Source of the DNA: Breoghania corrubedonensis
GTDB taxonomy: Bacteria; Pseudomonadota; Alphaproteobacteria; Rhizobiales; Stappiaceae
Direction: 5' to 3'
DNA length: 64,000 nucleotides
Assembly: GCF_003053845.1 (NCBI RefSeq)
Contig: NZ_QAYG01000007.1
Location: forward strand, 62,001 to 126,000
Every line of letters begins with the position of its first letter. Position 1 is the stretch's first letter. Position numbers and translations under genes: made by a program. Below, in pieces: positions 21,007 through 50,887 of this stretch. The notes beneath the pieces were generated by a model. That model made no database searches, was not told the DNA's origin, and saw nothing but the letters and a program-made list of their open reading frames with translations.

Positions 21007-22023
21007 ATGGAATTGAAACTGTTCCGCGAGTTCGAGGTTCTGGCCGAACACCTGAATTTCAGCCGGGCAGCCGAGCAGTTGAACATGACGCAGCCGGTGC
21101 TCAGTCGTCACATCAAGTATCTGGAGGAGCAGTTTCAGGTCCGGCTGCTGAACAGGAACACCCACAAGGTGGAACTGACACTCGCCGGCAGGCTCATGCT
21201 GGAAGAATCCAAGAAAATCATCGCCCAGTTCGAATCCCTGACACTTGCGGTGCGCGCGGCCAAGGGGCTGGGCAACGGCAAGCTCTCCGTTCTCTATCTC
21301 GGCGAGGCGACGCGCAGCTTCCTGTCTTCGTTCCTGGGCACCTTCCGCAGGAACCATGGCGATATCACCGTGGAATGCTGTGACAGCGAACTCGATGCGG
21401 TTCCCGAGGCAATCAAGAAACACACATGCGATCTGGCCTTCGTTATCCGTCCGCACGGGGTTGCGGAAACCATTGCGTCGGTAAGGCACCTTCATCTGTT
21501 CGAGGATCGCATGTGCATCGCGGTCAACAAGAACCACCCGTTGGCGCAGCGTGCGAGCGTTTCCATCCACGAGGCGGCGAAATGGCCGGTGATCGCCACC
21601 AGTCGCGAGCTCTCACCGCGTTCCGGGGAATGCAACGCTCATTTTCTCGAGCGCTACGGCTACAAGGACAGAATCGAGATCGAATGCCCCAACCTGAAGA
21701 CATGTTGCTTCTATCAGGATATCCATGAAGAGGCGGTCGTCATCCTGCCGCGGCATTGTTCCGACCTCATGTCGCCCAACTCCACACTGGTGTGGCTCGA
21801 TGAGGAAGACTGCAAGTTCGATATCGATCTGATCTGGGAGCGGGAGAACCGGAACCCCTGCATCGACGTGTTCGTCAAGGAATTGAGCGCGTTTTCGCAG
21901 GAACACAGTCTCGCGCCGCAAAGTCCGTTCCCCGCCGGACGGGAGGTCGTCCTCCACGAGGCTTTCCAGTCTGGCGGTCTCTCACCCTTGCGCAGTGCGA
22001 ATGCTCTTGTCGGCCGTGCCTGA
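21007..22023 (+). CDS. LysR-family transcriptional regulator
   Basis: The 338-residue protein has an N-terminal LysR helix-turn-helix (LFREFEVLAEHLNFSRAAEQLNMTQPVLSRHIKYLEEQF, residues about 4-42) and a periplasmic-binding-like effector domain from about 95 to 300. It ends in an unusually long, poorly conserved tail of about 40 residues. Cysteines are more frequent than usual (CC at about 124 and again in LKTCCF). It precedes the two MFS permease genes and is the nearest candidate regulator of the crotonase/BKACE region. LysR proteins normally activate in response to a pathway substrate or intermediate. Confidence 0.9.
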   Translation: MELKLFREFEVLAEHLNFSRAAEQLNMTQPVLSRHIKYLEEQFQVRLLNRNTHKVELTLAGRLMLEESKKIIAQFESLTLAVRAAKGLGNGKLSVLYLGEATRSFLSSFLGTFRRNHGDITVECCDSELDAVPEAIKKHTCDLAFVIRPHGVAETIASVRHLHLFEDRMCIAVNKNHPLAQRASVSIHEAAKWPVIATSRELSPRSGECNAHFLERYGYKDRIEIECPNLKTCCFYQDIHEEAVVILPRHCSDLMSPNSTLVWLDEEDCKFDIDLIWERENRNPCIDVFVKELSAFSQEHSLAPQSPFPAGREVVLHEAFQSGGLSPLRSANALVGRA

Positions 22024-22580
22024 CGGCACATAGCCAGCCGGAGCGGGACACGCTCCAAGCTGACATCCTGCACACATTCTCGCCGACCGGGCCGATTCAA
22101 TCAGGCCCGAATCTGCGTGGCCGCTCGCTTTCGTATTCCCGTCAGCGCTTCCGATCCTGTACTTGGCATTGCATTACGTCGTATTCGGTTATGTCTTGCG
22201 TGAATATCCATTTTCGGAAAAAGAATTACCGGAAAAATAATCGATATATATAATTAAACATCGGAACTGGTGAGTCCGGAAGTCTGAATACATAGATGAG
22301 AAATACGATGTGAAAGTCGTTTTTCAAAGCGTTCGGCTGAAAGTGACAGACTTCTCCCGCAGTGCCGGCCGGTGCTCGGCGTGCGCTCCCAACGACATGG
22401 AAGAAGGCAAACCGTCATCGTCGTTTCTGCTGGTCCTCGGCTTGCAGCCTTTGCCGTCACTCATTCCGAGTGCTTTGCCTCGGGTGGGATCATCTCAAGG
22501 CGGAACGCCGCACGAGTGCATCCACATGTGCTGCCCGGTAGCAATCGACTTCTTCATGACAATAATAAAAATGGGCCGCA
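22024..22580. other. Non-coding interval between the LysR and first MFS genes
   Basis: This 557-bp spacer is AT-rich in its middle (around 22200-22320). An open frame starting at 22310 crosses into the MFS gene in another frame but has no ribosome site and no recognisable product. The interval probably holds the MFS promoter; no operator is convincing. Confidence 0.5.
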
Positions 22581-23888
22581 ATGATGGAAACGCAAATAAA
22601 TGTGGCAATGGTCCAGAATTCCGCTTCCACCGGAGTGTCGCCGGTGGACAGGAAGAGCAATTTTGGCGGCCGAGGATGGACGATCATTTTCATCGAGGCG
22701 GCGCTGCTATGGATAAGCAGCGGCTCCGTCGTTCATGGCATGAACATCATATTGCCGGCGCTGTCGGGGGCGTTCGGGCTTGACCACACGGTCCTGCTGG
22801 CGCTGGCGACGCCGGCCACCTGGGCGTCCATCGTGGCAGGCTACGTGGGCGCGTATGTGTGCGAAAGGCGCGGCGCGAAGTTCCTCATCCTGACGAGCCT
22901 GTGCGTCGGCGGCGTGAGTTTCGGTCTGCTCGGCACCTGGACGACGACCACCGGGTTCTTCGTTCTCTTCTCGATCATCTGCTTCTTCGACACGTGCTTT
23001 GCCTATATCGGCGGACCGGCGCTGCTCGCCACCTGGTTTCCGCGCAAGAAGGGGCTGGCGCTGGGGTGGGCCACCATGGGACAGACCTTCTCCACCGCCA
23101 CCTACGTGCCCTACCTGGCCTTCATGTTCGCGACCTTCGGCGTGGCGCGCGGGTTCTGGGGCATTACCGCGCTGATGGCAGTGATGTTCGTCGTCGTCCT
23201 GTTCTTCGTAAGGGACAAGCCGGAAGACTTCGGATGCGCGCCGGACAACGTGCAGATGAGCGCGCGGGAGCTGGAGGAGAGCCGGCGCGAACAGGAAACC
23301 TACACCGCCGAATTCACCACATGGCAATTGCTCAAGATGAAGGACGTCTGGTTCATGGGCCTTGCCTTCGGCGGCGTCTATGTGGTCGTCGTCGGGCTGC
23401 TCAGCCAGTTCGTCCCGCGCATGATGGCGACGGGCATCGATCAGGAAACCGCGATCATCTACATGTCGATCGCGGCGATGGTCGGCGTTCCGGGCGCCTA
23501 CCTGTGGGGATGGCTGAGCCAGCGGATCGGCGTCAAGTGGTGCTCCATCGCCTATCTCTCGTGGTACGCCATCGCCCTCGTTCTCAACATCGTCGCGATG
23601 AACGAGGTCACCCTGTGGATCTCCCTGCTGATGATCGGTGAGGCGCTCGGCGGGGCCACCAATCTCTCGATGTCCATCGTTGCGGAGAAGTTCCCTCGGC
23701 AAGCCTTCGTCAAGGCCTGGGGGGTCGTGCAGCCGATCCAGTCGATCATCCGCAGTTGCGCCTTCGCCATCCTGGCCTTCGGGCTGACCTATCTGGGCGG
23801 GTTTTCCGGAGCCTACGCCGTCCTGCTGGTCATCGCGATCGTGTCGATCGTCCTGATCTGGCTGGTCGATCTCGAACCGGTGACCTGA
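22581..23888 (+). CDS. Major facilitator superfamily permease, paralogue 1
   Basis: The 435-residue inner-membrane protein has about 12 hydrophobic segments and resembles the OFA/monocarboxylate branch of MFS, for example WFPRKKGLALGWATMGQTFSTATYVPYLA after helix 4 and a central cytoplasmic loop ending WQLLKMKDVWFMGLAFGG. The start at 22581 (Met-Met) is taken as the first in frame. The first 25 residues are soluble. It is clearly paralogous to the next gene and both end with similar SIIRSCAFAILAFGLTYLGG-type segments. The substrate is not known; uptake of the compound degraded by neighbouring enzymes is inferred. Confidence 0.87.
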   Translation: MMETQINVAMVQNSASTGVSPVDRKSNFGGRGWTIIFIEAALLWISSGSVVHGMNIILPALSGAFGLDHTVLLALATPATWASIVAGYVGAYVCERRGAKFLILTSLCVGGVSFGLLGTWTTTTGFFVLFSIICFFDTCFAYIGGPALLATWFPRKKGLALGWATMGQTFSTATYVPYLAFMFATFGVARGFWGITALMAVMFVVVLFFVRDKPEDFGCAPDNVQMSARELEESRREQETYTAEFTTWQLLKMKDVWFMGLAFGGVYVVVVGLLSQFVPRMMATGIDQETAIIYMSIAAMVGVPGAYLWGWLSQRIGVKWCSIAYLSWYAIALVLNIVAMNEVTLWISLLMIGEALGGATNLSMSIVAEKFPRQAFVKAWGVVQPIQSIIRSCAFAILAFGLTYLGGFSGAYAVLLVIAIVSIVLIWLVDLEPVT

Positions 23889-23922
23889 ACGCCTTTTGTT
23901 TCAATCGCTAAGCGGTCTTTCC

Positions 23923-23943
23923 CCGCGCACGCGAAGTGCGCGG
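23923..23943. other. Short hairpin between the two MFS genes
   Basis: CCGCGCAC-gcgaa-GTGCGCGG forms a perfect 8-bp stem with a 5-nt loop, 35 bp after the first MFS stop codon. No T-run follows, so it is more likely an mRNA-stabilising or processing structure than a terminator. Confidence 0.45.
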
Positions 23944-24034
23944 ACACCCGGAGTGCGACCTCAATCCGGGCCTCGGAAGGCCACACAGTTCAACACGCAG
24001 CACCTCCCGAGGTGCCGATTATTGGAGAACGTCG

Positions 24035-25330
24035 ATGACAGACGAGGCAAGTACACTTTCCGGGGGCGTCCCGGAAAAGCGTGCGATCGACACCAAGAGC
24101 AACTTCGGTTTCTGGGGGTGGTCGATCGTCATTATCGAGGCATTCATGCTGTGGGGCAGCGCGGGCGTGCAGGTCCACGGTCTCAACATCATGGTGCCGA
24201 CATTGTCGGAGCATTTCGGCATCCCGCGCACAACGCTGCTGTTCTGGGCGACGCCTGCTTCCGGGGGCTCGGTCATCGCCGGCTTCGTCTGCGCCATGAT
24301 CGCAGACAAGTTCGGCGCGAAGATCACCATCGTCATGAGCCTGATCATGTGCGCCCTGTGCTTCGGCATGCTGGGCACCTGGGGCACCGTGCCGGGCTTC
24401 GTGATCCTGTTCTTCGGCGTGTGCTTCTTCGGTTCGGGCTATGCCTATGTGGGCGGCTTCGCGCTGATCGCCAACTGGTTCCCGGGCAAGAAGAACCTGG
24501 CGCTCGGCTGGGTCACCATGGGGCAGACCTTCTCCACGGTGGTCTTCGTGCCGCTGCTGGCCTATCTGTTTGTCCACATTGGCGTTCAGGCCGGCTTCTG
24601 GGCGATCTCGGCGCTGCTGGGCGTGCAGCTCGTCATCGTGCTCGCGATGGTCAAGAACACGCCGGAAGAACGCGGGATGACCCCTGACAACATGCCGGTC
24701 GTCGCGCCGGCTCCCGATGGCGGCAATGGGGCTGCGGAAAGCAAGGCCTGCCCCTTCACCATCGGGCAGCTTTTGAAGATGAAGGATGTCTGGTTCATCG
24801 CGCTCGGCTCGGGCGGCATCTTCGTGATGCTGGTCGGCGTTCTCAGCCAGTTCGTTCCGCGGCTGATGACGCTTGGCTATTCGCTCGACAAGGCGATCCT
24901 TTATCTCTCCGTTTCCGCCCTGATCGGCGTTCCCGGCGCCTACATGTGGGGCTGGATCGGCCAGAAGTTCGGCACCAAGAACGGGCTCCTGTTCTACACC
25001 CTGTGGTGGCTGGTGGCCGTCATCCTCAACATGTTCGAACTGAGCCCGGTGGTCCTCTATCTCTCGCTCGGCATGCTGGGGCTCAGCTTCGGCGGGGCGA
25101 GCAACCTGACCACGGCGATCGTGGCGGAGAAGTTCCCGCGGGCTGCCTTCGTTCGGGCCTTTGCCCTCATCCAGCCGATCCAGGGCATCATCAGGTGCTG
25201 CTCCTTCGCCATTCTGGCCTTCGGGCTCACTTACCTCGGCGGATATATCGGGGCTTACGCCTGCCTGGCGGCCGTCGGCGTCGTCACATTGATCTTGTTC
25301 TGGATCATGGATCCGACCCCGGTCGCATGA
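24035..25330 (+). CDS. Major facilitator superfamily permease, paralogue 2
   Basis: This 431-residue permease is paralogous to the preceding one. Both share the KSNFGFWGW/KSNFGGRGW lead-in, the VHGLNIMVPTLS / VHGMNIILPALS first-loop segment, the NWFPGKKNLALGWVTMGQTFST loop and the LLKMKDVWF central loop. Start ATG 24035 follows a TTGGAGAAC ribosome site. About 12 membrane spans are predicted. Two tandem permeases could differ in substrate (for example parent compound and breakdown product) or in affinity. A terminator-like hairpin follows directly. Confidence 0.87.
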   Translation: MTDEASTLSGGVPEKRAIDTKSNFGFWGWSIVIIEAFMLWGSAGVQVHGLNIMVPTLSEHFGIPRTTLLFWATPASGGSVIAGFVCAMIADKFGAKITIVMSLIMCALCFGMLGTWGTVPGFVILFFGVCFFGSGYAYVGGFALIANWFPGKKNLALGWVTMGQTFSTVVFVPLLAYLFVHIGVQAGFWAISALLGVQLVIVLAMVKNTPEERGMTPDNMPVVAPAPDGGNGAAESKACPFTIGQLLKMKDVWFIALGSGGIFVMLVGVLSQFVPRLMTLGYSLDKAILYLSVSALIGVPGAYMWGWIGQKFGTKNGLLFYTLWWLVAVILNMFELSPVVLYLSLGMLGLSFGGASNLTTAIVAEKFPRAAFVRAFALIQPIQGIIRCCSFAILAFGLTYLGGYIGAYACLAAVGVVTLILFWIMDPTPVA

Positions 25331-25338
25331 TGCTCGCG

Positions 25339-25362
25339 GGCCCGGTTCGCGCCGGGCCTTTC
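25339..25362 (+). terminator. Rho-independent-type terminator after the second MFS gene
   Basis: GGCCCGG-ttcgcg-CCGGGCC gives a perfect 7-bp GC stem followed by TTTCCCC. It starts 9 bp after the MFS stop codon. Confidence 0.55.
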
Positions 25363-25720
25363 CCCATTGTCCCGCGGGCCGATCGGTCCGATCCGACAAA
25401 GACCGCTTTTCGGCCGGACCTCGTGTCCGGCCGAATGCGTTTGCAGAGGCGGAGCGCTTCGAATGGGACGATGCACCGCTCGCGGGCGGATGCCCGTTGC
25501 GGCCGCCTGCCTTCGTGAGACCGCTGTCGCCGCAGCCCGGACCGCACCGCGGCGCATTTCTGCCGTGTCGTATCGATCCTTTCCTCGCCTCACCTACCGT
25601 CGCCCGGCCGCAGTCCGATGGCGGCGAGGCAGGACGGTCGGCGCTCATGGCGCGAGGGATATGCCCGGGCGGAGAGGCTGCAGGGCGGGGGCGTCCTTGC
25701 GCGCGACATGGAGGTCAAAG

Positions 25721-25758
25721 CAAGAAAAAGGCCGGCACGCCTTTGATGCGTGCCGGCC
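25721..25758 (-). terminator. Rho-independent terminator of the crotonase gene
   Basis: On the minus strand a perfect 11-bp stem (GGCCGGCACGC / GCGTGCCGGCC) with a 7-nt loop is followed by TTTTTCTTG. It stands 50 bp past the crotonase stop codon, a textbook intrinsic terminator. Confidence 0.8.
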
Positions 25759-25808
25759 CATCTGTTTGCATGAAAGGATGGAGAGGCGCGTCCTCTCCGT
25801 GCCTGTCG

Positions 25809-26804
25809 TTACTTGATCTCGTCTTCCTCCTGACCGCCGCCTACGCGCGGACGGACGATCTTGCCCTTCTTTTCGGCGGCCTTGACGAGTTCGGCCTCTT
25901 CCTTGGCCCAGTCCCAGTAGCCGATCTCATGCGGGGAATGCTCGGTAGCGGTGACGAACATCTCCGTGGAGAAGGCATTGCGCAGCTCGTTGGCGATGTC
26001 TTCCTTCCAGGGCTTGCGGATCTGCTGGGTGGTGATGCGGCGCGTGACGCGGGTGCCGAGGCTCATGATGAGTTCGGCGATCTCGTGCGCACGCGTGTAG
26101 CAGGCTTCGGTGTCCGTGCAGATCTCGTTGACCATGCCGAGCTGTAGCGCCTTGCGGGCGGTGATGATCTCGCCGGTGAGCTCCGCATAGGCATAGCGCT
26201 TGCGGCCCATCAGCTCGCGCCAGGCGATCTGGACGCCGTCGCCGGGGACCATGTTGACGCGGTAGTGCATCTCGGTCGTCCAGGCGTCCTCGGTGCACAG
26301 CGTGATGTCGGAGAACAGCACCAGATCGGAGTGGAAGGCGCCGCCGTTCCATACGCCGATGGTCGGAACCTCGATGTCGAAGACCTGGCCTTCGATGTCG
26401 TTGGTGCCGTCATAGTACTGGTACTCGTACATCTTCCAGGCTTCTTGCGGGGCCGAGGCGAACTCCGTGGAAGGCAGCCACTCGCCGTTCTTGCCGACGC
26501 GGCCGATGCCCTTGAAGAGATCGGGGCCGGTGCCGCCGAGGATGATGACCTCGTTGTCCGGATCCCGGCCGGCCCAATCGAAGAAATAGTGCAGGCCCTG
26601 GTGAAGCGGCGCGCCCCACTGGATCGGGCCGCCATTGGTGTGCATGCGGGCTTCCAGGATGCCGTTCGTGCGCTTCATCTGGAAGCAATGCTTCAGGCGC
26701 TCGGAATATTCCTCGAAAGGCATGTGCGGAATGGTGCCCAGTTCTTCGTGGGACATTTCCTTCCGCTTGCCGGCGTCGGATTCGAAATTGGCTTTGATCG
26801 CCAT
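25809..26804 (-). CDS. Crotonase-superfamily enzyme resembling 6-oxocamphor hydrolase (candidate C-C hydrolase)
   Basis: The 331-residue protein has the crotonase fold. The opening (FEEYSERLKHCFQMKRTNGILEARMHTNGGPIQWGAPLHQ), the EVIILGGTGPDLFKGI strand and the VNMVPGDGVQIAWRELMGRKRY-AELTGE segment resemble the beta-diketone hydrolase 6-oxocamphor hydrolase more than enoyl-CoA hydratases. That family performs retro-Claisen cleavage of cyclic 1,3-diketones without CoA. It is longer than usual (about 255-260) through an N-terminal arm and a lysine-rich C-terminal tail. Start ATG 26804 has a strong AAGGAG site at good spacing. A simple CoA-dependent hydratase cannot be excluded. It stands alone on its strand with its own terminator. 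Confidence 0.75.
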   Translation of the reverse strand: MAIKANFESDAGKRKEMSHEELGTIPHMPFEEYSERLKHCFQMKRTNGILEARMHTNGGPIQWGAPLHQGLHYFFDWAGRDPDNEVIILGGTGPDLFKGIGRVGKNGEWLPSTEFASAPQEAWKMYEYQYYDGTNDIEGQVFDIEVPTIGVWNGGAFHSDLVLFSDITLCTEDAWTTEMHYRVNMVPGDGVQIAWRELMGRKRYAYAELTGEIITARKALQLGMVNEICTDTEACYTRAHEIAELIMSLGTRVTRRITTQQIRKPWKEDIANELRNAFSTEMFVTATEHSPHEIGYWDWAKEEAELVKAAEKKGKIVRPRVGGGQEEDEIK

Positions 26805-27655
26805 ATTGTACTCCTTTTCAAGCACACCCCGCGAGAGCACCTCGTCGACATGCGCCATCCGCAATTGGCTTCTCTATTCTTGCGATAAGCGATCGTCTTT
26901 GCGATAAATATACTTTCGCGTACTGATGCTTATTCGAATAAATAGTTATCACTGTCGATATGTATAAGAGAAATTCTGTTTATATATTTCGATTATGCCA
27001 TTCGCGCATAAGCTGTAGGGCGAAGTCGGCCAGGTCACGAGTGGCGCTTCATGCGCCTGCCGGGCATTGCCCACGGCGAGGCGAATGCCCGGGCGACTGT
27101 CGTCGCGAAACATCGGGGCGCGGTTCGCGCAACGGCTTCGGATCAAGTCCCTGGTTATGTTTCCGAAGCATTAGCAAAATACTGAAATAGTATTAGCCAT
27201 AATATGTTCCATCGATACGATGTTTTTGCGAGGTGTATCTGAAGGAAATCCATTTCCCGAAGCACGATATATTCTCAAATGGATGATTATATTCGCGATT
27301 TGACGAGATTCCGCAGGGAGTCCCGGCCTGATGAATATTGCTCATCTTTCGGGGGGAGAAGGGAGAAAAGCATAACTATTCGACGCGGAAGCGGAGATTT
27401 ATTTCGGTCGAAAGCGCGCGAATACACCGGAGAACTGCGATGGATACATGCATGTACACGGGCGCGCTCTTTCGTTCGCAAGTTTTTTTCGCAGTAACCC
27501 GAGCCAGGGAGGCGCGCGAGAGAACCGATCGCAACGAGAAAGTCCGTGGACCGAGACCCCGTCCATCGGGACATCTCCGGGATTTCGGCGCGTTCGCAGT
27601 CCCGAAATTCAAATCTTCATGGGTAACCAACCTCCAGTAGAGAGTGCAAGTAAAC
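26805..27655. other. AT-rich divergent promoter interval between the crotonase and SphA-like genes
   Basis: This 851-bp interval has no supported gene. A 9-bp direct repeat TTGCGATAA occurs at 26880-26888 and 26899-26907, 76 bp upstream of the crotonase start codon and suited to a regulator site. Short frames near 27280-27800 have no ribosome site and give unstructured Arg/Ser-rich products. The low GC content suggests acquired or regulatory DNA. Confidence 0.5.
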
Positions 27656-28549
27656 ATGCAAAATCTCAAGGTGTTCGGCGTGTATGCGTGCCTGGCGGCG
27701 GGCGCTGCGCTGCTTCCGATGTCCTCGGCGAATGCTGCGGAACGATTGACCCCGATGCAGCCTGGCGGTTCGACGGGCAATGCGGCGGGTGCATTGCCGC
27801 CTGACGGGCTCTATTTCTCCGTCGACACGTTCGTAAACAACGGCTCGCTCAGGGGCGACGACGGCAAGCGGGTGAAACCTGCCGGGCGGTCGATCAACAC
27901 GATGAATATCGGCGTGACGCCGACCTTGTTGTGGGTTCCCGGCTGGGAGGTCCTCGGCGCGCGCTACGGCATGGCGATCACCCAGCCGTATCAGCATACC
28001 GAGACCACGGGCTCCGAAATCACCGACGCGCTGTTCAACCTGATCCTGACGCCGGCCATCCTGTCCTGGGATCTCGGAAACGGTCTCTTCGTCGGGACGG
28101 GCATGAACATCTACATGAAGACCGGTGACTTCGACCGCTACGCCAACGAATTCTGGACCTTCGAACCGAACCTGGCCGTCAGCTACCTCGCCAACGGCTG
28201 GAACCTCACGCTGAACAACACCTTCGACTTCAACACCAAGAACGAGTCGAACGATTATCAGACTGGCAGCTTCTACTATCTGGACGCGACGGCGACCAAG
28301 CGGTTCGGCCGTTGGCAGGTCGGCGCCGTCGCCAACTACACGCAGCAGCTGGAAGAGGACGAGCAGTACGGTGTGAAGCTGGACGATACGCAGGTCATGC
28401 ACGTCATGGCCGGGCCGTATCTCAGCTACGACTTCGACAAATTCACCGTGTCGGCCCGCTATCTCCAGAACATCCGCACGGAGAATGATATGGGCGTCTC
28501 CTTCTTCCATATCGGCGTGGGCGTTCCGCTCTACCGACCAGGCAAGTAA
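27656..28549 (+). CDS. SphA/phenol-MetA-type outer-membrane channel protein
   Basis: The 297-residue protein has a signal peptide ending SSANAAE and then a beta-barrel pattern of alternating strands. The start ERLTPMQPGGSTGNAAGALPPDGLYFS is the typical lead of the SphA / 'MetA-pathway of phenol degradation' family. Later segments such as TLLWVPGWEVLGARYGM and GVGVPLYRPGK are also family-like. These porin-like proteins accompany catabolic genes for hydrophobic or phenolic compounds and are thought to aid uptake across the outer membrane. ATG 27656 was preferred to the in-frame GTG at 27644. It is followed by a strong terminator, so it is a single-gene unit. Confidence 0.82.
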   Translation: MQNLKVFGVYACLAAGAALLPMSSANAAERLTPMQPGGSTGNAAGALPPDGLYFSVDTFVNNGSLRGDDGKRVKPAGRSINTMNIGVTPTLLWVPGWEVLGARYGMAITQPYQHTETTGSEITDALFNLILTPAILSWDLGNGLFVGTGMNIYMKTGDFDRYANEFWTFEPNLAVSYLANGWNLTLNNTFDFNTKNESNDYQTGSFYYLDATATKRFGRWQVGAVANYTQQLEEDEQYGVKLDDTQVMHVMAGPYLSYDFDKFTVSARYLQNIRTENDMGVSFFHIGVGVPLYRPGK

Positions 28550-28592
28550 CCGCTTTCGGCGCAATACGATATCGGAATACGGCAACCAAAGG

Positions 28593-28637
28593 TGCGGGCC
28601 GCTGCCTTCGAAAGGAGGCAGCGGCCCGCATTTCTGT
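28593..28637 (+). terminator. Rho-independent terminator of the SphA-like gene
   Basis: A perfect 15-bp stem (TGCGGGCCGCTGCCT at 28593-28607 and its complement at 28616-28630) with an 8-nt loop is followed by TTTCTGTTT. It starts 44 bp after the stop codon. Confidence 0.8.
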
Positions 28638-28806
28638 TTGGGGCCAGGCATATTGCCTGCGCCGCCCGCCGGATGGTAGCCGCCTGCCGCGACAATGACG
28701 TCGCCATCCGGCTCCTGAGGAGAATGCTGCCGTCGGACGGCTTGGGCCTTGAGGGTCCGCCCGGTCAAACCGGCGGTCACGACCTTCATTTGGCGCACAA
28801 GATAAA

Positions 28807-28844
28807 TCGCCGCCGACCCCGGTTTGAACCGGGATCGGCGGCGA
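28807..28844 (-). terminator. Long hairpin, likely terminator of the BKACE/thiolase/CoA-transferase operon
   Basis: TCGCCGCCGA at 28807-28816 pairs with TCGGCGGCGA at 28835-28844. The inner CCCGGTT/AACCGGG pairs as well, giving a 17-bp stem with one mismatch and a tiny loop. Read on the minus strand it is followed by TTTATCTTG. It lies 139 bp past the last CoA-transferase gene. Confidence 0.6.
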
Positions 28845-28982
28845 CTGCCACGAGGGCAAGGCCAACGGAAGGGGGACCTTTGCGCTGAACCTGTACCCTC
28901 TTGGCGCGCGCCCTCAGGCAAGGCGCGATATCTGCGGGGAGGGGCATCCGGCGTCGCCGCCAGAAAGCCTCACCCGATCATG

Positions 28983-29627
28983 TCACTCGGCCATGACGGC
29001 CAGATCGCCGGCCACAACGAGCGTCGGTTCGACCTGCTTCTGGATATCCTCCGGCGCCAGTCCCTCAAGAATCTCGCGCAGCAGCAGGCCTTCGGGAACC
29101 ACGTCGATCACACACTGGTCCGTCACGATATGGCTGACGCAGGCCTTGCCGGTCAGCGGGAAGGTGCATTCGTTGAGGATCTTCGGCTCGCCGGTCTTGG
29201 TCACCAGATCCATGGTGACGATGACCTGACGCGCGCCGTTGACTAGATCCATCGCGCCGCCCATGCCGACGGTTTTGCCCGGCCGGGCCCAGTTGGCGAG
29301 ATCGCCCTTAACGGAAACCTGCAGCCCGCCGAGCACGGTTGCCGCCAGACGTCCGGAGCGCACGATGGCAAACGACTCAGCGCTGTCGAAGACACTGGAG
29401 CCGGGCACCGGCACGAAACGCATGGCGTTGGCATTCGAAAAACTCTCGACGTTCTGCAACCCCGTGGAGGCGGGGCCGACGCCGATGAGGCCGTTTTCGG
29501 TGTGCAGCATGACGCCTTTGGGCGCATAGTTGCCGCAAAGGCTCGGAATGCCGATGCCGAGGTTGATAATGTCGCCGGGCTTGAAGTATTCCGCGACGCG
29601 CTTGGCCATCCTGTTACGCTTGTCCAT
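28983..29627 (-). CDS. 3-oxoacid CoA-transferase-type subunit B
   Basis: The 214-residue protein is the beta subunit of a family I CoA-transferase (AtoA/ScoB-like). The catalytic glutamate is Glu44 in TENGLIG. Other family features are the INLGIGIPSLCGNYAP start and GKTVGMGGAMDLVNGARQVIVTMD. It forms a complex with subunit A encoded immediately upstream (10 bp gap) and moves CoA from a donor such as succinyl-CoA or acetyl-CoA to a keto acid. In this operon acetoacetate is the natural acceptor. It is the last gene before a strong hairpin. Confidence 0.9.
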   Translation of the reverse strand: MDKRNRMAKRVAEYFKPGDIINLGIGIPSLCGNYAPKGVMLHTENGLIGVGPASTGLQNVESFSNANAMRFVPVPGSSVFDSAESFAIVRSGRLAATVLGGLQVSVKGDLANWARPGKTVGMGGAMDLVNGARQVIVTMDLVTKTGEPKILNECTFPLTGKACVSHIVTDQCVIDVVPEGLLLREILEGLAPEDIQKQVEPTLVVAGDLAVMAE

Positions 29628-29637
29628 CTGACTTCCC

Positions 29638-30288
29638 CTACCTGGCCAGGATCATGTCGACAAAGACGCCCGGAGTGACGATATGGTCGAGACCGACCTC
29701 GTCGAGTTCGACCATCATGTCGGCCTCCACGATCGTCAGATCCGAGCACTTGGCGACGAGCGGATTGAAGTTGCGGCTCGTGCCGCGATAGGTGAGGTTT
29801 CCCAGCGGATCGGCGGTTCGCGCCCGCACAAGCGCGATCTCCGCGCGCAACGCCGGTTCCAGCAGGTATGTCTCGCCGGCGACCTCGATAATCTGCTTGC
29901 CTTCCGCCGCTATCGTGCCGAGGCCGGTCTTGGTCAGCACGCCGCCAAGGCCCGAGCCGCCGCACCGCAGGCGCTCGGCGAAGCTGCCCTGCGGGATCAG
30001 GGTGACGTCGATCTTCCCGGCCTCCTTCAGCGGCACCGTCTCGGTGTTCATTCCGATATGCGAGCAGAACACCTTGTCGATGCGGCCCTCGTGTACGAGG
30101 CGGCCGATCGTCAGGTTGGCGTCGCCGGTGTCGTTGGAGACCAGCGTCAGGTGGCGAGCGCCGCTGTCGATGACGCATTCGATGAGTTCGTTCGGCGTGC
30201 CATGATTGGCGAAGCCGCCGATCGCGATCGTCTGGCCGTCCTTGAACAGCGCCACGATCTCTTCACGTGCGCGGAGTTTTCCCAGCAT
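29638..30288 (-). CDS. 3-oxoacid CoA-transferase-type subunit A
   Basis: The 216-residue alpha subunit (AtoD/ScoA-like) shows the CoA-binding glycine motif TIAIGGFANHGTPNELIE near the N terminus, ADPLGNLTYRGTSRNFNP and the C-terminal IVTPGVFVDMIL. Start ATG 30288 lies 2 bp after the thiolase stop codon, so it is translationally linked. Length and order (A before B) are standard. Specificity cannot be read, but the thiolase and BKACE partners point to acetoacetate. Confidence 0.9.
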   Translation of the reverse strand: MLGKLRAREEIVALFKDGQTIAIGGFANHGTPNELIECVIDSGARHLTLVSNDTGDANLTIGRLVHEGRIDKVFCSHIGMNTETVPLKEAGKIDVTLIPQGSFAERLRCGGSGLGGVLTKTGLGTIAAEGKQIIEVAGETYLLEPALRAEIALVRARTADPLGNLTYRGTSRNFNPLVAKCSDLTIVEADMMVELDEVGLDHIVTPGVFVDMILAR

Positions 30289-30290
30289 GT

Positions 30291-31457
30291 TCAATCCCTC
30301 GTAAGAAGCACGGCCACGCCCTGGCCGCCGCCGACACAGAAGGTGATGACGGCCTTTTCCAGATCGCAGCGGTGCATTTCGTAGACTGTCTTGGCGGTCA
30401 GGATGGCGCCGGTGCCGGCCAGCGGATGGCCGAGCGCGATGGCGCCGCCGTTCGGGTTGACCTTGTCGATCGGAAGCCCGAGATCGCGGATGCAGGCGAG
30501 CGACTGCGAGGCGAAGGCCTCGTTGAGCTCCCACAGGTCGATGTCGGCGACGGTGAGCTTCTCGCGCGCCAGTAGCTTGCCGACGGCCGCGATCGGTCCG
30601 ACGCCCATGATGTTGGGATCGACGCCGGCCGCGGCATAGCTGCGGAACACGGCCAGGATCGGCAGCCCTTCCGCCTCCGCCGCCTTGCGTTCCATGATGA
30701 CCATGGCGCCGCCGCCGTCGCTCATCGGCGAGGAATTGCCCGCCGTGACGATGCCGTCGGCGATGAAGCAGGGCTTCAGAGCGGCCAACGTGTCCGCCGT
30801 GCAGTCGGCGCGCACCGGCTCGTCGCGCCTGATCATCGTGCTGCCCTTGCGGCCTTTGACCTCGATCGGCACGATCTGTTCGTCGAAGAGGCCGGCATCC
30901 CACGCCTTCGTGGCGCGGGCATGGGACTGCGCCGAGAACTCATCGAGCTGACGGCGGGTGAAGCCGTATTTCTTCGCGACGTTTTCCGCCGTGATGCCCA
31001 TGGTCACATGGCCGACGCGGTCGGGCGCGGTGTGGATGTCGACGAATTGCGGCGGCGCGACGGAGTAGGGCACCTCGCACTTTTCCAGCGAATAGGTGCG
31101 GCGCGAGTCGCTTTCCACGCCGCCGGCGACGATGACGTCGGCAAAGCCCGCCATGATCTGGATGGCGCCGTAGGCAAGGGCGTTCAGAGAGGCCGCGCAC
31201 TGACGGTCGAGCGTGATGCCCGGCACCGTCACCGGCAGGTCTGCCTCGAGCGCCACCATGCGGCCCATGTTGTTGATTTCGTTGTTCATCAGGTTGGCGT
31301 AGATGACGTCGTCGATCCGGGCAGGATCGATTTTCGCGCGGGCGACCGCCTCCCTGACCGCGGCGGCGCCGAGGATATGGGCCGGCACCGGGGCGAACTG
31401 GCCGCGGCAGCGGCCGACCGGGGTGCGGACGGTGGATACGATGACGGCTTCTCTCAT
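30291..31457 (-). CDS. Thiolase (acetyl-CoA acetyltransferase-like)
   Basis: The 388-residue thiolase has all catalytic elements: the acyl-accepting Cys87 (TLDRQCAAS), His344 in GHPLAGTG and Cys374 in CVGGGQG. The REAVIVSTVRTPVGR start is standard. Members of this branch cleave acetoacetyl-CoA or beta-ketoadipyl-CoA to acetyl-CoA and a shorter acyl-CoA. With the BKACE and CoA-transferase genes it would turn acetoacetyl-CoA into two acetyl-CoA. The ribosome site is modest, and the gene lies 39 bp after the BKACE gene. Confidence 0.92.
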   Translation of the reverse strand: MREAVIVSTVRTPVGRCRGQFAPVPAHILGAAAVREAVARAKIDPARIDDVIYANLMNNEINNMGRMVALEADLPVTVPGITLDRQCAASLNALAYGAIQIMAGFADVIVAGGVESDSRRTYSLEKCEVPYSVAPPQFVDIHTAPDRVGHVTMGITAENVAKKYGFTRRQLDEFSAQSHARATKAWDAGLFDEQIVPIEVKGRKGSTMIRRDEPVRADCTADTLAALKPCFIADGIVTAGNSSPMSDGGGAMVIMERKAAEAEGLPILAVFRSYAAAGVDPNIMGVGPIAAVGKLLAREKLTVADIDLWELNEAFASQSLACIRDLGLPIDKVNPNGGAIALGHPLAGTGAILTAKTVYEMHRCDLEKAVITFCVGGGQGVAVLLTRD

Positions 31458-31496
31458 CGAGAAAACTCCAGCAGGTCTCAGGTAAGGAACGGACGA

Positions 31497-32342
31497 TCAG
31501 CGCGCGAGCGGCTTGATGCCCAGGATTTCGCGTGCCTGCGCCGGGCTGGCCGGCTCCTTGCCGAAGAGCCGGATTGCGTCGGCGGCCCGTTCAACCAGCT
31601 GCAGGTTGGTGGCCTTCACGCCCTTGGAGAAATAGACGTTGTCCTCCAGGCCGACGCGAATGTTGCCGCCGAGCGCGAGCGCGGCGTACATGATCGGCAG
31701 GTGGTCCTTGCCGATGCCGAAGGCCGACCAGGTCGAGCCGGCCGGCAGCTTCGACTTGAGGTAGAGCAGGTTCTCCACGGTGGCCGGCATGCCGCCGAGC
31801 ACGCCCAGGCAGAACTGGTAGTGGCCGGGAATCGAGAGCTTGCCTTCTTTCATGAAGTAGCCGGCGACGCCGAGCATGCCGGAATCGAAGATCTCGATCT
31901 CCGGCTTGATGCCGCGGTTCATCAGTACCTGGCCGAGCTCGCCGAGGAACTTCGGGGAGTTGGTAAAGACGCCGCCCGGCATCCAGTTGAAGGAGCCCGC
32001 GTCATAGGAGGCCATCTCGATCCCGTCGAGCGTCGCGACATGTTCCATGCGCTGCGCGTCGGTGGCGCGGTTGTCGCCGGATGTGGTGCAGTTGATGACC
32101 ACGTCGCAGTCCTCGTGAGCGCGGATCAGGCGGATCGTTTCCTTGAACTTCGCCGGGTCCATCGTGCCGATGCCGTTGTCGTCGCGCATGTGCAGGTGGA
32201 CGACAGCAGCCCCCGCCTGCCAACAGGCGTAGGCGTCGCTGGCGATTTCTTCCGGTGTCAGGGGAATGTTCTCGTTGATGTCCTTGGGGGTCATGGCGCC
32301 GGTCAGGGCGGCGGAGATGATGACCTTGTTTTCGACAGTCAT
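31497..32342 (-). CDS. BKACE family beta-keto acid cleavage enzyme (DUF849)
   Basis: The 281-residue TIM-barrel protein has the metal-site pair His49 and His51 (VVHLHMRD) and the Glu233-Asp234 pair (VGLEDNVY). These correspond to the zinc ligands and catalytic Asp of Kce, the 3-keto-5-aminohexanoate cleavage enzyme. The start SAALTGAMTPKDINENIPLTPEEIA is typical. BKACE enzymes react a beta-keto acid with acetyl-CoA to give acetoacetate and a new CoA ester, and triacetate acetoacetate-lyase belongs here. Start ATG 32342 follows a GAGGAAGCC ribosome site. As first gene of the operon it defines the entry reaction; the R-group of its keto acid is unknown. Confidence 0.9.
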   Translation of the reverse strand: MTVENKVIISAALTGAMTPKDINENIPLTPEEIASDAYACWQAGAAVVHLHMRDDNGIGTMDPAKFKETIRLIRAHEDCDVVINCTTSGDNRATDAQRMEHVATLDGIEMASYDAGSFNWMPGGVFTNSPKFLGELGQVLMNRGIKPEIEIFDSGMLGVAGYFMKEGKLSIPGHYQFCLGVLGGMPATVENLLYLKSKLPAGSTWSAFGIGKDHLPIMYAALALGGNIRVGLEDNVYFSKGVKATNLQLVERAADAIRLFGKEPASPAQAREILGIKPLAR

Positions 32343-33248: not shown

Positions 33249-34151
33249 TCACTCCGCCTTGACCGGCTTCAGCGCGAAGCGGAACGCCTTGCTGATGGCC
33301 GGCGCCAGAACGGTCGCGTGATCTTCGCCGTCGAATATGGTCAGCGCCACATCAGCGTTCGGATATGTATCGCCGATGACCGGGGCCAGCTCGCTCGGGT
33401 TATTGCACATCCGGCGTCGCCGCTTGCGGGTCTTGAAGATCTCGCGGTCGGGGTGGGTGAGGTGCCAGGGGGCGATGTCCTCTTCGAGCCGGCCGGCGAG
33501 CACGATGACCCGGAGCCCCGCCTCGGGCAGGGTGGCGGCCGGAGCGGCCTTGCGCGCGGCGTACTTCTCAAGAAGCCGATCCTTGTTCCACCACAGCGAG
33601 GGGCTGACCGCGATCCAGCCGTGGAAAAGGTCCGGGCGCTCGGCCAGAAGCTCCAGCGCGAAGCCACCGCCGAGTGAATGGCCGAACAGGATCTGCCGCG
33701 TCGTATTGATGGCCCGCATCCGCGCGATCAGCGGCTTCAGGTCGGCCTCGATGAAGGCGAGAAAGGCCTCCGCTCCTCCAAAAGGCGCGTCGGGTCGGAC
33801 GTCGGGATCGATCGACGGCCCGGACGTGAAATCCAGCATCCGCCGGTTAGGCTCGAAATCGGACGTGCCGGGATAGCCGATGCCGACAATCACCGCCGGG
33901 TCGATATTGGTGTAGCTCACCCGCTGGTTCACCCGCCGCATCGTCTCCGACAGCAAGGCGAAATCGGCGTTCGCGTCGAGCAGATAGATGACCGGATAGC
34001 CGCCCCGCGGTGCCGGGGCCGCCGGCGTGGAGAGGAAGATGCGGTAAGGCGCGCCGGTGGCGCTCGCCTCGATGTCGAAGGTTTCCGCGCCCGCCACCAG
34101 AACGGGGCTCGTTTCCGGCAGGGTCCGGGCTTCGGCGTCGACGGCTTTCAT
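33249..34151 (-). CDS. Alpha/beta hydrolase, Fes/BesA/IroE-like siderophore esterase
   Basis: The 300-residue esterase (esterase D/putative-esterase family) has the strand YPVIYLLDANADF, the nucleophile elbow FGHSLGGGF, the segment GWIAVSPSLWW and a late DGEDHATV carrying the catalytic His. Proteins of this type hydrolyse the trilactone backbone of ferric enterobactin or bacillibactin to release iron. No signal peptide is seen, so it should act in the cytoplasm after uptake. Start 34151 was preferred to 34205 because the extra residues are unlike the family. It is divergent from the FecCD gene with a RirA-type box between them. Confidence 0.82.
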   Translation of the reverse strand: MKAVDAEARTLPETSPVLVAGAETFDIEASATGAPYRIFLSTPAAPAPRGGYPVIYLLDANADFALLSETMRRVNQRVSYTNIDPAVIVGIGYPGTSDFEPNRRMLDFTSGPSIDPDVRPDAPFGGAEAFLAFIEADLKPLIARMRAINTTRQILFGHSLGGGFALELLAERPDLFHGWIAVSPSLWWNKDRLLEKYAARKAAPAATLPEAGLRVIVLAGRLEEDIAPWHLTHPDREIFKTRKRRRRMCNNPSELAPVIGDTYPNADVALTIFDGEDHATVLAPAISKAFRFALKPVKAE

Positions 34152-34236
34152 GATCTGTCCGTATCCTTCAAATCCTGATGATGTCCCTGCGGCGCGACGC
34201 ACCATATCGACCTATCCGATATCACGCCATAAAACT

Positions 34237-34251
34237 TGACTGTAAATCTCA
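34237..34251. promoter_or_regulatory. RirA-type iron box (TGA-N9-TCA), site 1
   Basis: TGACTGTAAATCTCA fits the rhizobial iron-responsive operator TGA-N9-TCA and is preceded by AAAACT, as at the second site. It lies 69 bp upstream of the FecCD permease and 86 bp upstream of the divergent esterase, so it can serve both. By family knowledge RirA represses from such sites under iron sufficiency. Confidence 0.7.
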
Positions 34252-34319
34252 TCTATTGCATCACCGAGGCGACCGGGTGGACCAGTCTTCCCGCCACACG
34301 TTTTCGCGAAGGATGCGAG

Positions 34320-35414
34320 ATGACGAGCCGCGTGCCGTCCGCCGGGAGCGGGCAATCGGAAGAGGCAGCAGGCGAGGCGCGCGCGTGGATCTCCGGCTAT
34401 GACGCGCGCATCCGCCGTCGCCTCGTCATCCTCGTCCTTCTGTCGCTCGCCCTTTGCGCCTCCTTCGTTCTGGACCTCATCACCGGTCCCTCGAGCATGG
34501 GTGTGCCGCACGCCCTGAAAGGGCTTTTCGGCCTGGGCGAGCTTTCGCTGCCGCAACGCATCATCATCTTCGACGTTCGCGTACCGGCGGCGATCGTCGC
34601 CATTCTCGTGGGCGCGGCGCTGTCGCTGGCGGGCGCGGAAATGCAGACGGTTCTGAACAATCCGCTGGCGAGCCCGTTCACGCTCGGGGTCTCGTCGGCC
34701 GCCTCGCTGGGGGCGGCGCTGGCGCTGGTGCTCGGGATCGGCATTCCCGGCGTGCCGCCCGACTGGATCGTCTCCGGCAACGCCTTTCTGTTCGCCTTCG
34801 CCTCCGTTTTGCTGCTGCAGGGCATGGCGCGGGCGCGCGGTGCGGGCGTGGAGACGCTCGTCCTCGTCGGCATCGCCATGGTCTTTACGTTCAACGCGCT
34901 GGTGGCGCTGGTGCAGTTCGTCGCCAGCCAGGACGCGCTGCAGCAGCTCGTCTTCTGGACCATGGGAAGCCTCGGCCGGGCGAGCTGGAACAAGCTGGCG
35001 ATCCTGGCGTTCCTGCTCATCATCCTGCTGCCGTTGTCGTTGAAGGATGCGTGGAAGCTGACCGCGCTGAGGCTTGGCGAGGACCGGGCGCGCAGCTTCG
35101 GCATCAATGTCGCGCGCCTGCGTTTCGTCTCGCTGGTGCGCGTCAGCCTGCTGGCCGGTACGTCGGTGGCCTTCGTCGGAACGATCGGCTTCATCGGGCT
35201 TGTCGGTCCCCATATCGCGCGGCTCATGGTGGGCGAGGATCATCGCTTCTTCCTGCCGACCTCCGTTCTCACCGGCGCGCTCCTGATGTCGCTCGCTTCC
35301 GCGCTCTCCAAGGTGCTGGCCACCGGTGTCGTCCTTCCCGTCGGCATCATGACGGCGCTCATCGGCGTGCCGTTCTTCATCTTTCTCATCTTCACGAGCC
35401 GCGAGCGGACATGA
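34320..35414 (+). CDS. Ferric-siderophore ABC transporter permease (FecCD family)
   Basis: The 364-residue inner-membrane permease has about nine or ten spans and the FecCD landmarks: RVPAAIVAILVGAALSLAGAEMQTVLNNPLASPFTLGVSSAA near the start and FVGTIGFIGLVGPHIARLMVGEDHR late in the protein. A hydrophilic N-terminal arm of about 35 residues precedes the first span. Only one FecCD gene is present, so the channel is presumably a homodimer, unlike the FepD/FepG pair of enteric bacteria. Start ATG 34320 has a GAAGGA ribosome site. Its stop overlaps the ATPase start (ATGA). Confidence 0.9.
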   Translation: MTSRVPSAGSGQSEEAAGEARAWISGYDARIRRRLVILVLLSLALCASFVLDLITGPSSMGVPHALKGLFGLGELSLPQRIIIFDVRVPAAIVAILVGAALSLAGAEMQTVLNNPLASPFTLGVSSAASLGAALALVLGIGIPGVPPDWIVSGNAFLFAFASVLLLQGMARARGAGVETLVLVGIAMVFTFNALVALVQFVASQDALQQLVFWTMGSLGRASWNKLAILAFLLIILLPLSLKDAWKLTALRLGEDRARSFGINVARLRFVSLVRVSLLAGTSVAFVGTIGFIGLVGPHIARLMVGEDHRFFLPTSVLTGALLMSLASALSKVLATGVVLPVGIMTALIGVPFFIFLIFTSRERT

Positions 35415-36193
35415 GTTCCTCCCTCCTGACGATCCGCGACCTTTGCGCCGGCTACGGTCGTCGCCGCATCATCGAGACCTTGAGCGTGCCTGCCATCGAG
35501 GGAGGCTCTGTCACGGCACTGCTCGGCCCGAATGCGGCGGGCAAGACCACGCTGCTTCGCGCCCTGGCCGGGCTGCTGCCGATGACGGGCGGGCTCGATC
35601 TCTGCGGGGAAGACCTGACGGCGCTCTCGGTTGCCGAGCGCGCCTCGCGCGTGACCTACATGCCGCAAAGCCTGCCGCAGCGCGTGGCGCTCACGGTGTT
35701 CGAGGCGGTGCTGGCCGCATTGCGGGCATCGCCGCTTGCCGGGATGTCACCCGAGGGCGCGCGCAACGAGGCGATGCGGGCGCTCGAACGCCTCGGCATC
35801 GCCGATCTCGCACTTTCATCGCTCGACGAACTGTCCGGCGGCCAGCGCCAGCTCGCGAGCCTCGCCCAGGCGATCGTGCGTTCGCCGCGGGTGCTGCTGC
35901 TCGACGAGCCGACGAGCGCGCTCGATCTCAACCACCAGCACAAGGTCATGGCGCTGGTGGAGGAGGTCGCGCGCGAACGCGGCATCGTCGCCATCATCGT
36001 GCTGCACGACATCGCGCTCGCCTGCCGCTGGTGCAAACGGGTGATGGTGTTCTCGAAAGGCGCCGTGGTCGCCGACGGCACACCGGAAAAGGCGGTCACG
36101 CCCGAGGTTCTGGCCGCTGTCTACGGTGTTTCGGCACGTGTGGAGCGCTGTTCGCGCGGGTTCCTGCAGGTGAGCGTCGACGGGCCGGCGTAA
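35411..36193 (+). CDS. Ferric-siderophore ABC transporter ATP-binding protein (FecE/FepC family)
   Basis: The 260-residue ATPase has Walker A GPNAAGKTT, signature LSGGQRQLASLAQAI, Walker B VLLLDEPTSALD and switch histidine VLHDI. The Walker A carries NAAGKT rather than NGAGKS, as occurs in this branch. It powers the FecCD permease; the binding protein is encoded separately at 46447-47583 under its own iron box. The gene ends 35 bp before a palindromic repeat that probably closes the transcript. Confidence 0.9.
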   Translation: MSSSLLTIRDLCAGYGRRRIIETLSVPAIEGGSVTALLGPNAAGKTTLLRALAGLLPMTGGLDLCGEDLTALSVAERASRVTYMPQSLPQRVALTVFEAVLAALRASPLAGMSPEGARNEAMRALERLGIADLALSSLDELSGGQRQLASLAQAIVRSPRVLLLDEPTSALDLNHQHKVMALVEEVARERGIVAIIVLHDIALACRWCKRVMVFSKGAVVADGTPEKAVTPEVLAAVYGVSARVERCSRGFLQVSVDGPA

Positions 36194-36228
36194 GGGGTGT
36201 GGCAGCGGTTTGCTGTGAGTTCACAGCT

Positions 36229-36372
36229 TGCTCCCCTCTCCCCCCTTGCGGGGGAGATGTCACGCGAATGCGTGACAGAGGGGGGTAACGCCGCTTGCTC
36301 CGAACCTGTCGCTTCACCCCCCTCTGTCGGCTGCTGCCGACATCTCCCCCTCAAGGGGGAGAGGGGAGCAAG
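36229..36372. repeat. RIME2-like double-hairpin intergenic element, copy 2
   Basis: Same architecture as copy 1 but inverted. The tips are TGTCACGC-gaat-GCGTGACA and TGTCGGC-tgct-GCCGACA and the spacer reads CTTGCTCCGAACCTG. It separates the convergent FecE-type and entA genes. Confidence 0.9.
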
Positions 36373-36437
36373 CGGTGAGTTCACGGCTTTGCATTGACCT
36401 TCTGGCCGCCGCGTCCTGACAGGCGGGTACATTCCCC

Positions 36438-41130: not shown

Positions 41131-41215
41131 GGTTTCGGGCCTCTCCCTCGTGAGCCTCGATCAGGCATGCGTTGCTCTCCCGTCTGCTGGCCGCTCTGGG
41201 TTCCGTGCCTGTCCC

Positions 41216-41359
41216 GCTTGCGCCCCTCTCCCCCCTTGAGGGGGAGATGTCACCCTATGGGTGACAGAGGGGGGTAGGCCGCGTGTTATGAACCTGCCGC
41301 CACCCTCCTCTGTCGGCAAAGCCGACATCTCCCCCTCAAGGGGGGAGAGGGGCGCAAGC
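41216..41359. repeat. RIME2-like double-hairpin intergenic element, copy 3
   Basis: The third copy lies in the 272-bp gap between entB and entF. The tips are TGTCACCC-tat-GGGTGACA and TGTCGGC-aaa-GCCGACA. The outer arms begin and end with GCTTGCGCCCC/GGGGCGCAAGC. It sits inside the siderophore operon and must be transcribed through. Confidence 0.9.
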
Positions 41360-41402
41360 GGTGCGGATACAGGACAATCGGCTCCGACAGGGAATGCCTG
41401 CC

Positions 41403-42296: not shown

Positions 42297-42300
42297 CGTT

Positions 42301-45176: not shown

Positions 45177-45251
45177 GGTCGTCAATCCCGCATCTTGAAA
45201 CGACGGCCGCAGGCGGAGCCCCTTGTGGGGCCGCCCATGACCGTCGGGGCC

Positions 45252-46391: not shown

Positions 46392-46446
46392 GGGATACTC
46401 CTGTCAGATGTCACGGGCGGCCGGTGCGGATCGGGAGAAACCCGCG

Positions 46447-48540: not shown

Positions 48541-48597
48541 GTCGGAGACCTTCTTTTCCTTCTGCACGACAGGTCGTTCCTTCTCAAAAGGAGGAAG

Positions 48598-48623: not shown

Positions 48624-48629
48624 AGGCAA

Positions 48630-50831: not shown

Positions 50832-50887
50832 GTTACCTCTTTGTCCCGAAGACAGGATCTTCGTCGACAAAAGGCAGTATCATATCC

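Follow-up and report, generated by a model that had tools for sequence, protein, structure and literature searches.

Background

Known anaerobic ring-cleavage routes reduce or oxidize the ring prior to opening it, as set out in the parts of the Discussion of PMC10470551 drawn on here. The pathway described there for phloroglucinol in Clostridium scatologenes employs PGR, the dihydrophloroglucinol cyclohydrolase DPGC, TfD and the triacetate acetoacetate-lyase TAL. The described enzymes nearest to the ring-opening candidate discussed here form another group, the 6-oxocamphor hydrolase (OCH) of Rhodococcus and the beta-diketone hydrolase of Anabaena (ABDH). We analyzed a 64,000-nucleotide stretch of the genome of Breoghania corrubedonensis (hereafter the window), in which an OCH-type crotonase lies near an operon encoding a beta-keto acid cleavage enzyme (BKACE), a thiolase and both subunits of a CoA-transferase. 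The host genome consists of 5.33 Mb on 21 contigs, and the gene set, located on contig C7, spans positions 21007-32342 of the window. A first-pass annotation had suggested that these genes convert a cyclic beta-diketone, possibly phloroglucinol, to acetyl-CoA; the crotonase, the phenol-type channel and the BKACE-thiolase-CoA-transferase operon all lie where it placed them.

Judging from sequence comparison and a structural model, the set likely encodes a ring-opening beta-diketone hydrolase that feeds a BKACE module. That it constitutes a transferable oxygen-independent module opening a plant-derived phenolic ring of the phloroglucinol type and ending in acetyl-CoA is a serious possibility, if somewhat short of probable. 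Family, fold, catalytic residues and gene linkage were computed; from these we infer a substrate, products, direction and order of steps.

Proposed pathway

A cyclic polyketone of the phloroglucinol type would enter through the channel and a carrier of the major facilitator superfamily (MFS). The crotonase would hydrate one carbonyl of the 1,3-diketone (keto) form and the C-C bond would be broken in a retro-Claisen reaction, giving a 3,5-dioxo acid, in the simplest case triacetate (3,5-dioxohexanoate) from phloroglucinol. With acetyl-CoA, the BKACE would turn this acid into acetoacetate and a 3-oxoacyl-CoA (acetoacetyl-CoA); the CoA-transferase would then activate the acetoacetate, and the thiolase would release acetyl-CoA.

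The conversion of phloroglucinol (C6H6O3) into three acetyl units is redox-neutral. Chemically, direct hydrolysis to triacetate would therefore suffice. The proposed steps would add up to this same conversion with no net redox change, matching the repeated core of crotonase, BKACE, thiolases and CoA-transferase, which contains no redox gene. Direct opening of phloroglucinol to triacetate is the leading specific candidate, held tentatively. In its fullest form the proposal would have a single cofactor-free crotonase hydrolyze triketo phloroglucinol to triacetate, replacing reductase, cyclohydrolase and dehydrogenase in a redox-free route to three acetyl-CoA that has spread horizontally over at least five phyla; as a whole this remains somewhat doubtful.

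The crotonase resembles cyclic beta-diketone hydrolases

A phmmer search of the PDB with the window crotonase returned OCH as the top match (E 2e-29) and ABDH as the second (E about 5e-27), with enoyl-CoA hydratases ranking lower (best E 5e-12). It scored above no enoyl-CoA hydratase cut-off among the 25 NCBIfam models listed. The AlphaFold2 model (19 sequences; pLDDT 74.6, pTM 0.78) points the same way: Foldseek ranks 1-12 are all OCH or ABDH chains (TMt 0.86-0.88). In the alignment, His68, His158, His180 and Asp189 (331-residue numbering) correspond to OCH His45, His122, His145 and Asp154. His122 of OCH is named in a PDB title, and we take His45, His145 and Asp154 to have catalytic roles as well. 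All four residues are unchanged in 39 of 39 orthologues. PDB matches, fold and catalytic residues thus agree with the likeness to OCH seen in the first-pass annotation, and the assignment of the predicted protein to the cyclic beta-diketone hydrolase type is supported. Its start was set at the ATG common to most orthologues; the open frame extends to 26864.

The host encodes a second, paralogous OCH-like crotonase on contig C4 (L082:6750-7598), 32% identical to that of the window and in a different context.

Orthologues and their distribution

Orthologues were gathered in one contig scan with exact peptide patterns, which misses distant copies, and the counts are not prevalences. The scan gave 38 loci with a crotonase 75-90% identical in the best segment, except one (L056, 38%, broken frames). 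They are distributed over five phyla. Proteobacterial hosts include Enterobacterales, Pasteurellaceae, Tolumonas, Telmatospirillum, Cohaesibacter, Rhodoplanes and Pleomorphomonas, among others; the remainder are spirochaetes, actinobacteria, one Chloroflexi and one deltaproteobacterial bin. Several of the genomes are metagenome bins, two loci (L048 and L043) share a contig and two others (L023 and L025) a genome. L056, which lies on the chromosome of Enterobacter sp. EA-1, has its entire crotonase operon frame-broken, by decay or poor sequence; it stands outside the 39-sequence set, and its BKACE fragment is included in the BKACE count given below. Two different subclades of the orthologue occur together on the spirochaete contigs L045 and L043/L048, along with OYE and HpaB-like genes.

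A phylogenetic tree (55 sequences) places all 39 orthologues in a single clade (support 100/99-100). The crotonases of the window and Cohaesibacter pair with each other (98/84) and join those of Pasteurellaceae and spirochaetes (95/97), apart from the other alphaproteobacteria. This placement suggests that the gene has spread by horizontal transfer, although such a grouping is not proof. Among 200 relatives, the host not counted, 10 had crotonase matches at E 1e-20, at most 43% identical; plasmids yielded only relatives at 31-37%, and the gene of Klebsiella indica had no match in E. coli at the blastn level.

The crotonase is linked to a BKACE operon

Linkage was counted by tblastn, gene calling being crude in loci of high GC content. 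A BKACE was found in 31 of the 38 orthologue loci, a thiolase in 30, CoA-transferase subunit A in 28 and subunit B in 26, while MFS homologues occur in 22 (both window MFS queries pooled). In many Enterobacterales loci the order is LysR, crotonase, BKACE, thiolase, both CoA-transferase subunits (A, then B), MFS and a second thiolase, and most orthologue loci have two thiolase types. In six of the seven loci that lack a BKACE, the genome holds one elsewhere, 62-86% identical to that of the window; the seventh (L036) belongs to a 1.3 Mb bin. By comparison, no BKACE was found near the paralogous OCH-like crotonases of 12 control loci, made up of the paralogue in the host itself and 11 matches from 10 genomes of the same order (two of these loci are just 12-14 kb long, and the controls were not matched by phylum). 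The co-occurrence of crotonase and BKACE, a check suggested in the first-pass annotation, is strong and exceeds chance, with 31 of 38 orthologue loci against 0 of 12 paralogue loci.

Two variants of the arrangement are of note. The actinobacterial loci also carry butyrate kinase and phosphotransbutyrylase-like genes; a butyrate kinase has been seen in phloroglucinol-grown C. scatologenes, according to the sections of PMC10470551 used here. In the L036 bin, two tandem OCH-like crotonases lie beside an acetoacetate-CoA ligase (above cut-off) with no BKACE, an arrangement that would likewise yield acetoacetate. A molybdenum protein next to these two crotonases (L036:11386-14073, with an Fe-S subunit) was considered as a transhydroxylase and rejected, its nearest PDB match being acetylene hydratase (E 1e-115). 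So was an 879-residue frame of locus L041, which reads as a transporter fusion frame.

The BKACE pocket and the class of substrate

Kce uses Glu14 to bind the amino group of its lysine-fermentation substrate, and the proven TAL has Trp16 at that place (PMC10470551, sections used here). The window BKACE has Met there. Among the 31 linked BKACEs the position is occupied by Val in 28, Met in one and Gly in one, and is gapped in one; five of the six unlinked copies also have Val, and the sixth escaped the search pattern. The window protein retains Kce H46, H48, E143, R226, E230 and D231 (metal ligands and catalytic residues).

These residues bear on an account in terms of ordinary catabolism, in which the crotonase would be an enoyl-CoA hydratase and the BKACE would cleave dehydrocarnitine or 3-keto-5-aminohexanoate. 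It draws on NCBIfam, where the nearest model for the window BKACE is that of Kce from lysine fermentation (285.9 bits, below the cut-off of 382). Set against this, Glu14 is replaced in the window and in 30 of the 31 linked BKACEs (the remaining one being the gapped sequence), a separate BKACE of the host sits in a carnitine-dehydrogenase-like context, and the crotonase is nearest OCH and ABDH in sequence and fold, keeps their catalytic residues and passes no enoyl-CoA hydratase cut-off. We regard this account as very improbable. A lysine- or carnitine-type function of the BKACE was rejected on the Glu14 replacement, and an amino-keto-acid role, which the first-pass annotation had named as an outcome that would overturn its reading, appears unlikely from the sequence.

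The host has further BKACEs. One, at C7:208651-211610 (L080:6649-9610), has Trp at the Glu14 position and is accompanied by a PF04199 cyclase and an aromatic-acid MFS transporter; neither PGR nor TfD lies alongside, and it is possibly a second hydrolase-plus-BKACE pair. The cyclase of this pair, at C7:208.6 kb, was considered as a DPGC and is at most a possible one, its 70-75% plasmid relatives standing in unrelated contexts in the three cases viewed. Another region, C14:59193-63600 (L078:10194-14600), holds a Phe-type BKACE; after it come a TfD-like HCDH, a transporter with an AtoE-like reading and a 3-hydroxybutyryl-CoA dehydrogenase.

The known phloroglucinol route in the host and in crotonase genomes

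A genome of the same order (L135) carries a canonical cluster of cyclase, cupin, PGR-type SDR, TfD-type HCDH and BKACE. The top PDB match of its SDR is 5g4k, which, together with 5g4l, we take to be the phloroglucinol reductase structure (the PDB record reads just 'oxidoreductase'). The cyclase, SDR and HCDH of this cluster served as queries against the host and 20 crotonase genomes picked from the 38 loci (L026 left out). An adjacent canonical set was found in four of the 20, namely Rhodoplanes, Pleomorphomonas, Brenneria izbisi and bin_314, the SDR of B. izbisi being closer to gluconate 5-dehydrogenase than to 5g4k. In most other crotonase genomes the best SDRs are merely 31-40% identical to the PGR query, and no PGR-type SDR was found in the host at E 1e-30. 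The host match to the cyclase is weak (35%), the cyclase beside the Trp-type BKACE being a different one (29% to that of L135). A TfD-like HCDH is present in the host (56%, C14:60053-60991) beside another BKACE and outside the window cluster. At E 1e-25, Acerihabitans, Brenneria sp. hezel4-2-4, Sodalis dw_96, Necropsobacter, Tolumonas, Lonepinella and Demequina gave no TfD match.

PF04199 cyclases are altogether absent from 7 of 19 crotonase genomes, which, with the weak cyclase match in the host, indicates that the crotonase route is independent of a cyclase-type cyclohydrolase. By analogy with the L135-type cluster, its cyclase, PGR-type SDR and HCDH look to have been replaced by the crotonase.

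In two further loci (L175 and L176), genes for an HCDH, a protein of the FAA-hydrolase family and a PGR-type SDR accompany an OCH-like crotonase (38-39% to that of the window); the SDR is 49-50% identical to that of L135 and has 5g4k as its second-best PDB match. Fumarylacetoacetase-type enzymes split triacetate. These loci may encode a phloroglucinol-type route in which the OCH-like crotonase opens the ring and the FAA-hydrolase may split triacetate. Both adjoin genes that read as sulfatase-like, and a sulfated polyphenol may be broken down here without CoA.

Redox genes and alternative substrates

A number of observations weigh against the proposed pathway. Within the window, the crotonase and the BKACE operon are in separate transcription units, with the channel on the opposite strand between them. 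The BKACE pocket has Met or Val where TAL of C. scatologenes has Trp, the window BKACE reaches 186 bits with NCBIfam NF053538 (3,5-dioxohexanoate), whose cut-off is 430, and the linked BKACE of L041 (38%) belongs to another type. If both kinds of cluster act on phloroglucinol, the four genomes that have both would carry a redundant pair; the two may therefore serve different substrates. The host also has a dedicated SDR ('SDR8'), 68% identical to the Telmatospirillum copy (next best SDR 39%); SDR8 is found at 50% identity or more in 15 of the 38 crotonase loci and at E 1e-45 in 11 of the 20 genomes (10 full-length copies and one fragment). A VprA-like flavoprotein is encoded in nine loci at 55% identity or more (one being the query itself) and often trails the Enterobacterales copies. 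An iron alcohol dehydrogenase lies 183 bases after the Acerihabitans operon (L023), and the second copy in that genome (L025) has the VprA-like gene; these neighbors lower the odds of the direct route a little. In spirochaetes, OYE and HpaB-like genes flank the core. Such flanking genes may act as feeders, or the missing dehydrogenase may be among them, and the absence of a redox step may hold for some lineages only.

Two of the rejected candidates belong here. NF053538 is uninformative as a marker of TAL: its cut-off is exceeded in 62 of the 289 genomes of the class and, in the host, beside an aminotransferase. SDR8 was considered as the known PGR, and 5g4k is absent from its 60 best PDB matches. 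In the host, SDR8 lies 141 bases downstream of a PobA-type 4-hydroxybenzoate 3-monooxygenase (C6:112880-114982; L118:7881-9983).

The first-pass annotation had stated that no reductase or dehydrogenase of the known route is present. This holds for the interval it covered, and in the host PGR and DPGC were likewise not found at the thresholds used, with the weak cyclase match and the different cyclase leaving some room for a DPGC; it does not extend to the whole genome, which carries SDR8 (C6:114224-114979) and the TfD-like match on C14. Of its overall interpretation, the hydrolase type, a BKACE outside the amino-keto-acid type and the co-occurrence of the two are supported, and the lack of any redox step may have to be confined to some lineages.

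In one alternative, the crotonase opens a reduced ring such as dihydrophloroglucinol, made by a separate reductase. A dehydrogenase, which could be SDR8, the HCDH on C14 or an enzyme particular to a lineage (the iron alcohol dehydrogenase, for example), would then oxidize 3-hydroxy-5-oxohexanoate to triacetate, and the crotonase would be a second, independently recruited dihydrophloroglucinol cyclohydrolase. The host has both SDR8 and the TfD-like HCDH, the tie between SDR8 and crotonase recurs in many lineages, L175 and L176 join an OCH-like crotonase to a PGR-type SDR and an HCDH, and, according to PDB titles, cyclohexane-dione-type rings are substrates of OCH and ABDH. However, at E 1e-45 six Enterobacterales isolates, Cohaesibacter, Pleomorphomonas and the L036 bin yielded no SDR8, and the searches described above argue similarly, with no PGR-type SDR in the host, mostly distant SDRs in the other crotonase genomes and no TfD in seven of them. 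Crotonases accompanied by SDR8 and those lacking it reach up to about 86-90% identity and probably have a common substrate, and from these sequences a feeder role of SDR8 is more likely than an essential one. On balance, we consider opening of a reduced ring unlikely.

The same module might instead act on another ring: a phloroglucinol with a methyl or acyl substituent, a 4-hydroxy-2-pyrone or, once accessory redox steps have prepared it, a ring of the resorcinol or pyrogallol type. The BKACE would then receive a larger 3,5-dioxo acid, and the two thiolases would split a larger and a small 3-oxoacyl-CoA. Val or Met in place of Trp gives a roomier BKACE pocket, two thiolase types are present in most loci, the operon is found beside a known-type phloroglucinol cluster in four genomes, and the nearby flavoprotein, OYE, HpaB-like and SDR genes suggest tailoring of a more complex precursor. 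Yet the simplest copies (L021, a 7.4 kb contig) show no tailoring gene, and crotonases 75-90% identical over five phyla suggest one common, widespread substrate. Such a ring is rather unlikely yet, like the reduced ring, a serious competitor; direct hydrolysis of phloroglucinol to triacetate is retained as the leading candidate.

Organization of the locus

The features of the set are listed in Table 1. The LysR and two MFS genes are counted as part of it because their homologues accompany the set elsewhere; homologues of the channel are present in some related loci. Further along the window, positions 33249-50870 read as a siderophore-like region, with a PF00756 esterase, an iron-transport permease and ATPase, an SDR, a 1306-residue peptide-synthetase-like protein and a TonB-receptor-like protein.

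Table 1. Genes of the crotonase-BKACE set (window positions)
Feature	Position	Strand	Remarks
LysR regulator	21007-22023	plus	41-54% identical homologues beside the crotonase in many related loci
MFS transporter	22581-23888	plus	homologues in related loci
Second MFS transporter	24035-25330	plus	
OCH-type crotonase, putative ring-opening C-C hydrolase	25809-26804	minus	331 aa
PF13557 outer-membrane channel ('MetA-pathway of phenol degradation' family), proposed uptake	27644-28549	plus	
3-oxoacid CoA-transferase subunit B	28983-29627	minus	TIGR02428, 247.7 bits (cut-off 243.55)
3-oxoacid CoA-transferase subunit A	29638-30288	minus	TIGR02429, above cut-off
Thiolase	30291-31457	minus	TIGR01930, above cut-off
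BKACE, candidate for cleavage of triacetate or a related 3,5-dioxo acid	31497-32342	minus	PF05853, 326 bits (cut-off 24.8)

Comparison with known systems

If the proposal is true, water-driven opening of a phenolic ring (or a close relative) coupled to a BKACE would be a new entry to anaerobic ring cleavage. It would explain how facultative anaerobes of bark, sap, gut and peat may use the breakdown products of polyphenols, and the crotonase-BKACE module would provide a genetic marker for that feeding. No paper on a crotonase in phloroglucinol breakdown was found in the open-access papers searched, subscription papers and preprints being outside the search. Each enzyme family has been described before; their combination, like the proposed redox-free route, is new within the literature searched.

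The window crotonase shares with OCH of Rhodococcus and ABDH (ALR4455) its fold, four catalytic residues and best matches, and, as proposed here, retro-Claisen cleavage of a cyclic 1,3-diketone. Unlike them, it forms a separate clade at 27-30% identity (structural alignments), is longer at both ends (331 residues against about 250-260) and is linked to BKACE, thiolase and CoA-transferase genes and not to camphor genes. The window BKACE has its Pfam family, metal ligands and catalytic residues in common with Kce, but it has Met at the position of the amino-group binder Glu14 and misses the NCBIfam cut-off. The L135-type cluster contains a relative of this BKACE and presumably leads to equal end products; it has the cyclase, PGR-type SDR and HCDH that the window cluster lacks. 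The pathway of C. scatologenes (PGR, DPGC, TfD, TAL; mBio 2023, PMC10470551), in the sections of that paper used here, likewise comprises a BKACE, a thiolase, a CoA-transferase, an MFS carrier and a regulator, with triacetate as a proposed intermediate. It differs in two respects: the pocket residue is Trp in TAL and Met or Val in the BKACEs described here, and in the window cluster PGR, DPGC (of the cyclase family) and TfD are missing, with the crotonase in their place.

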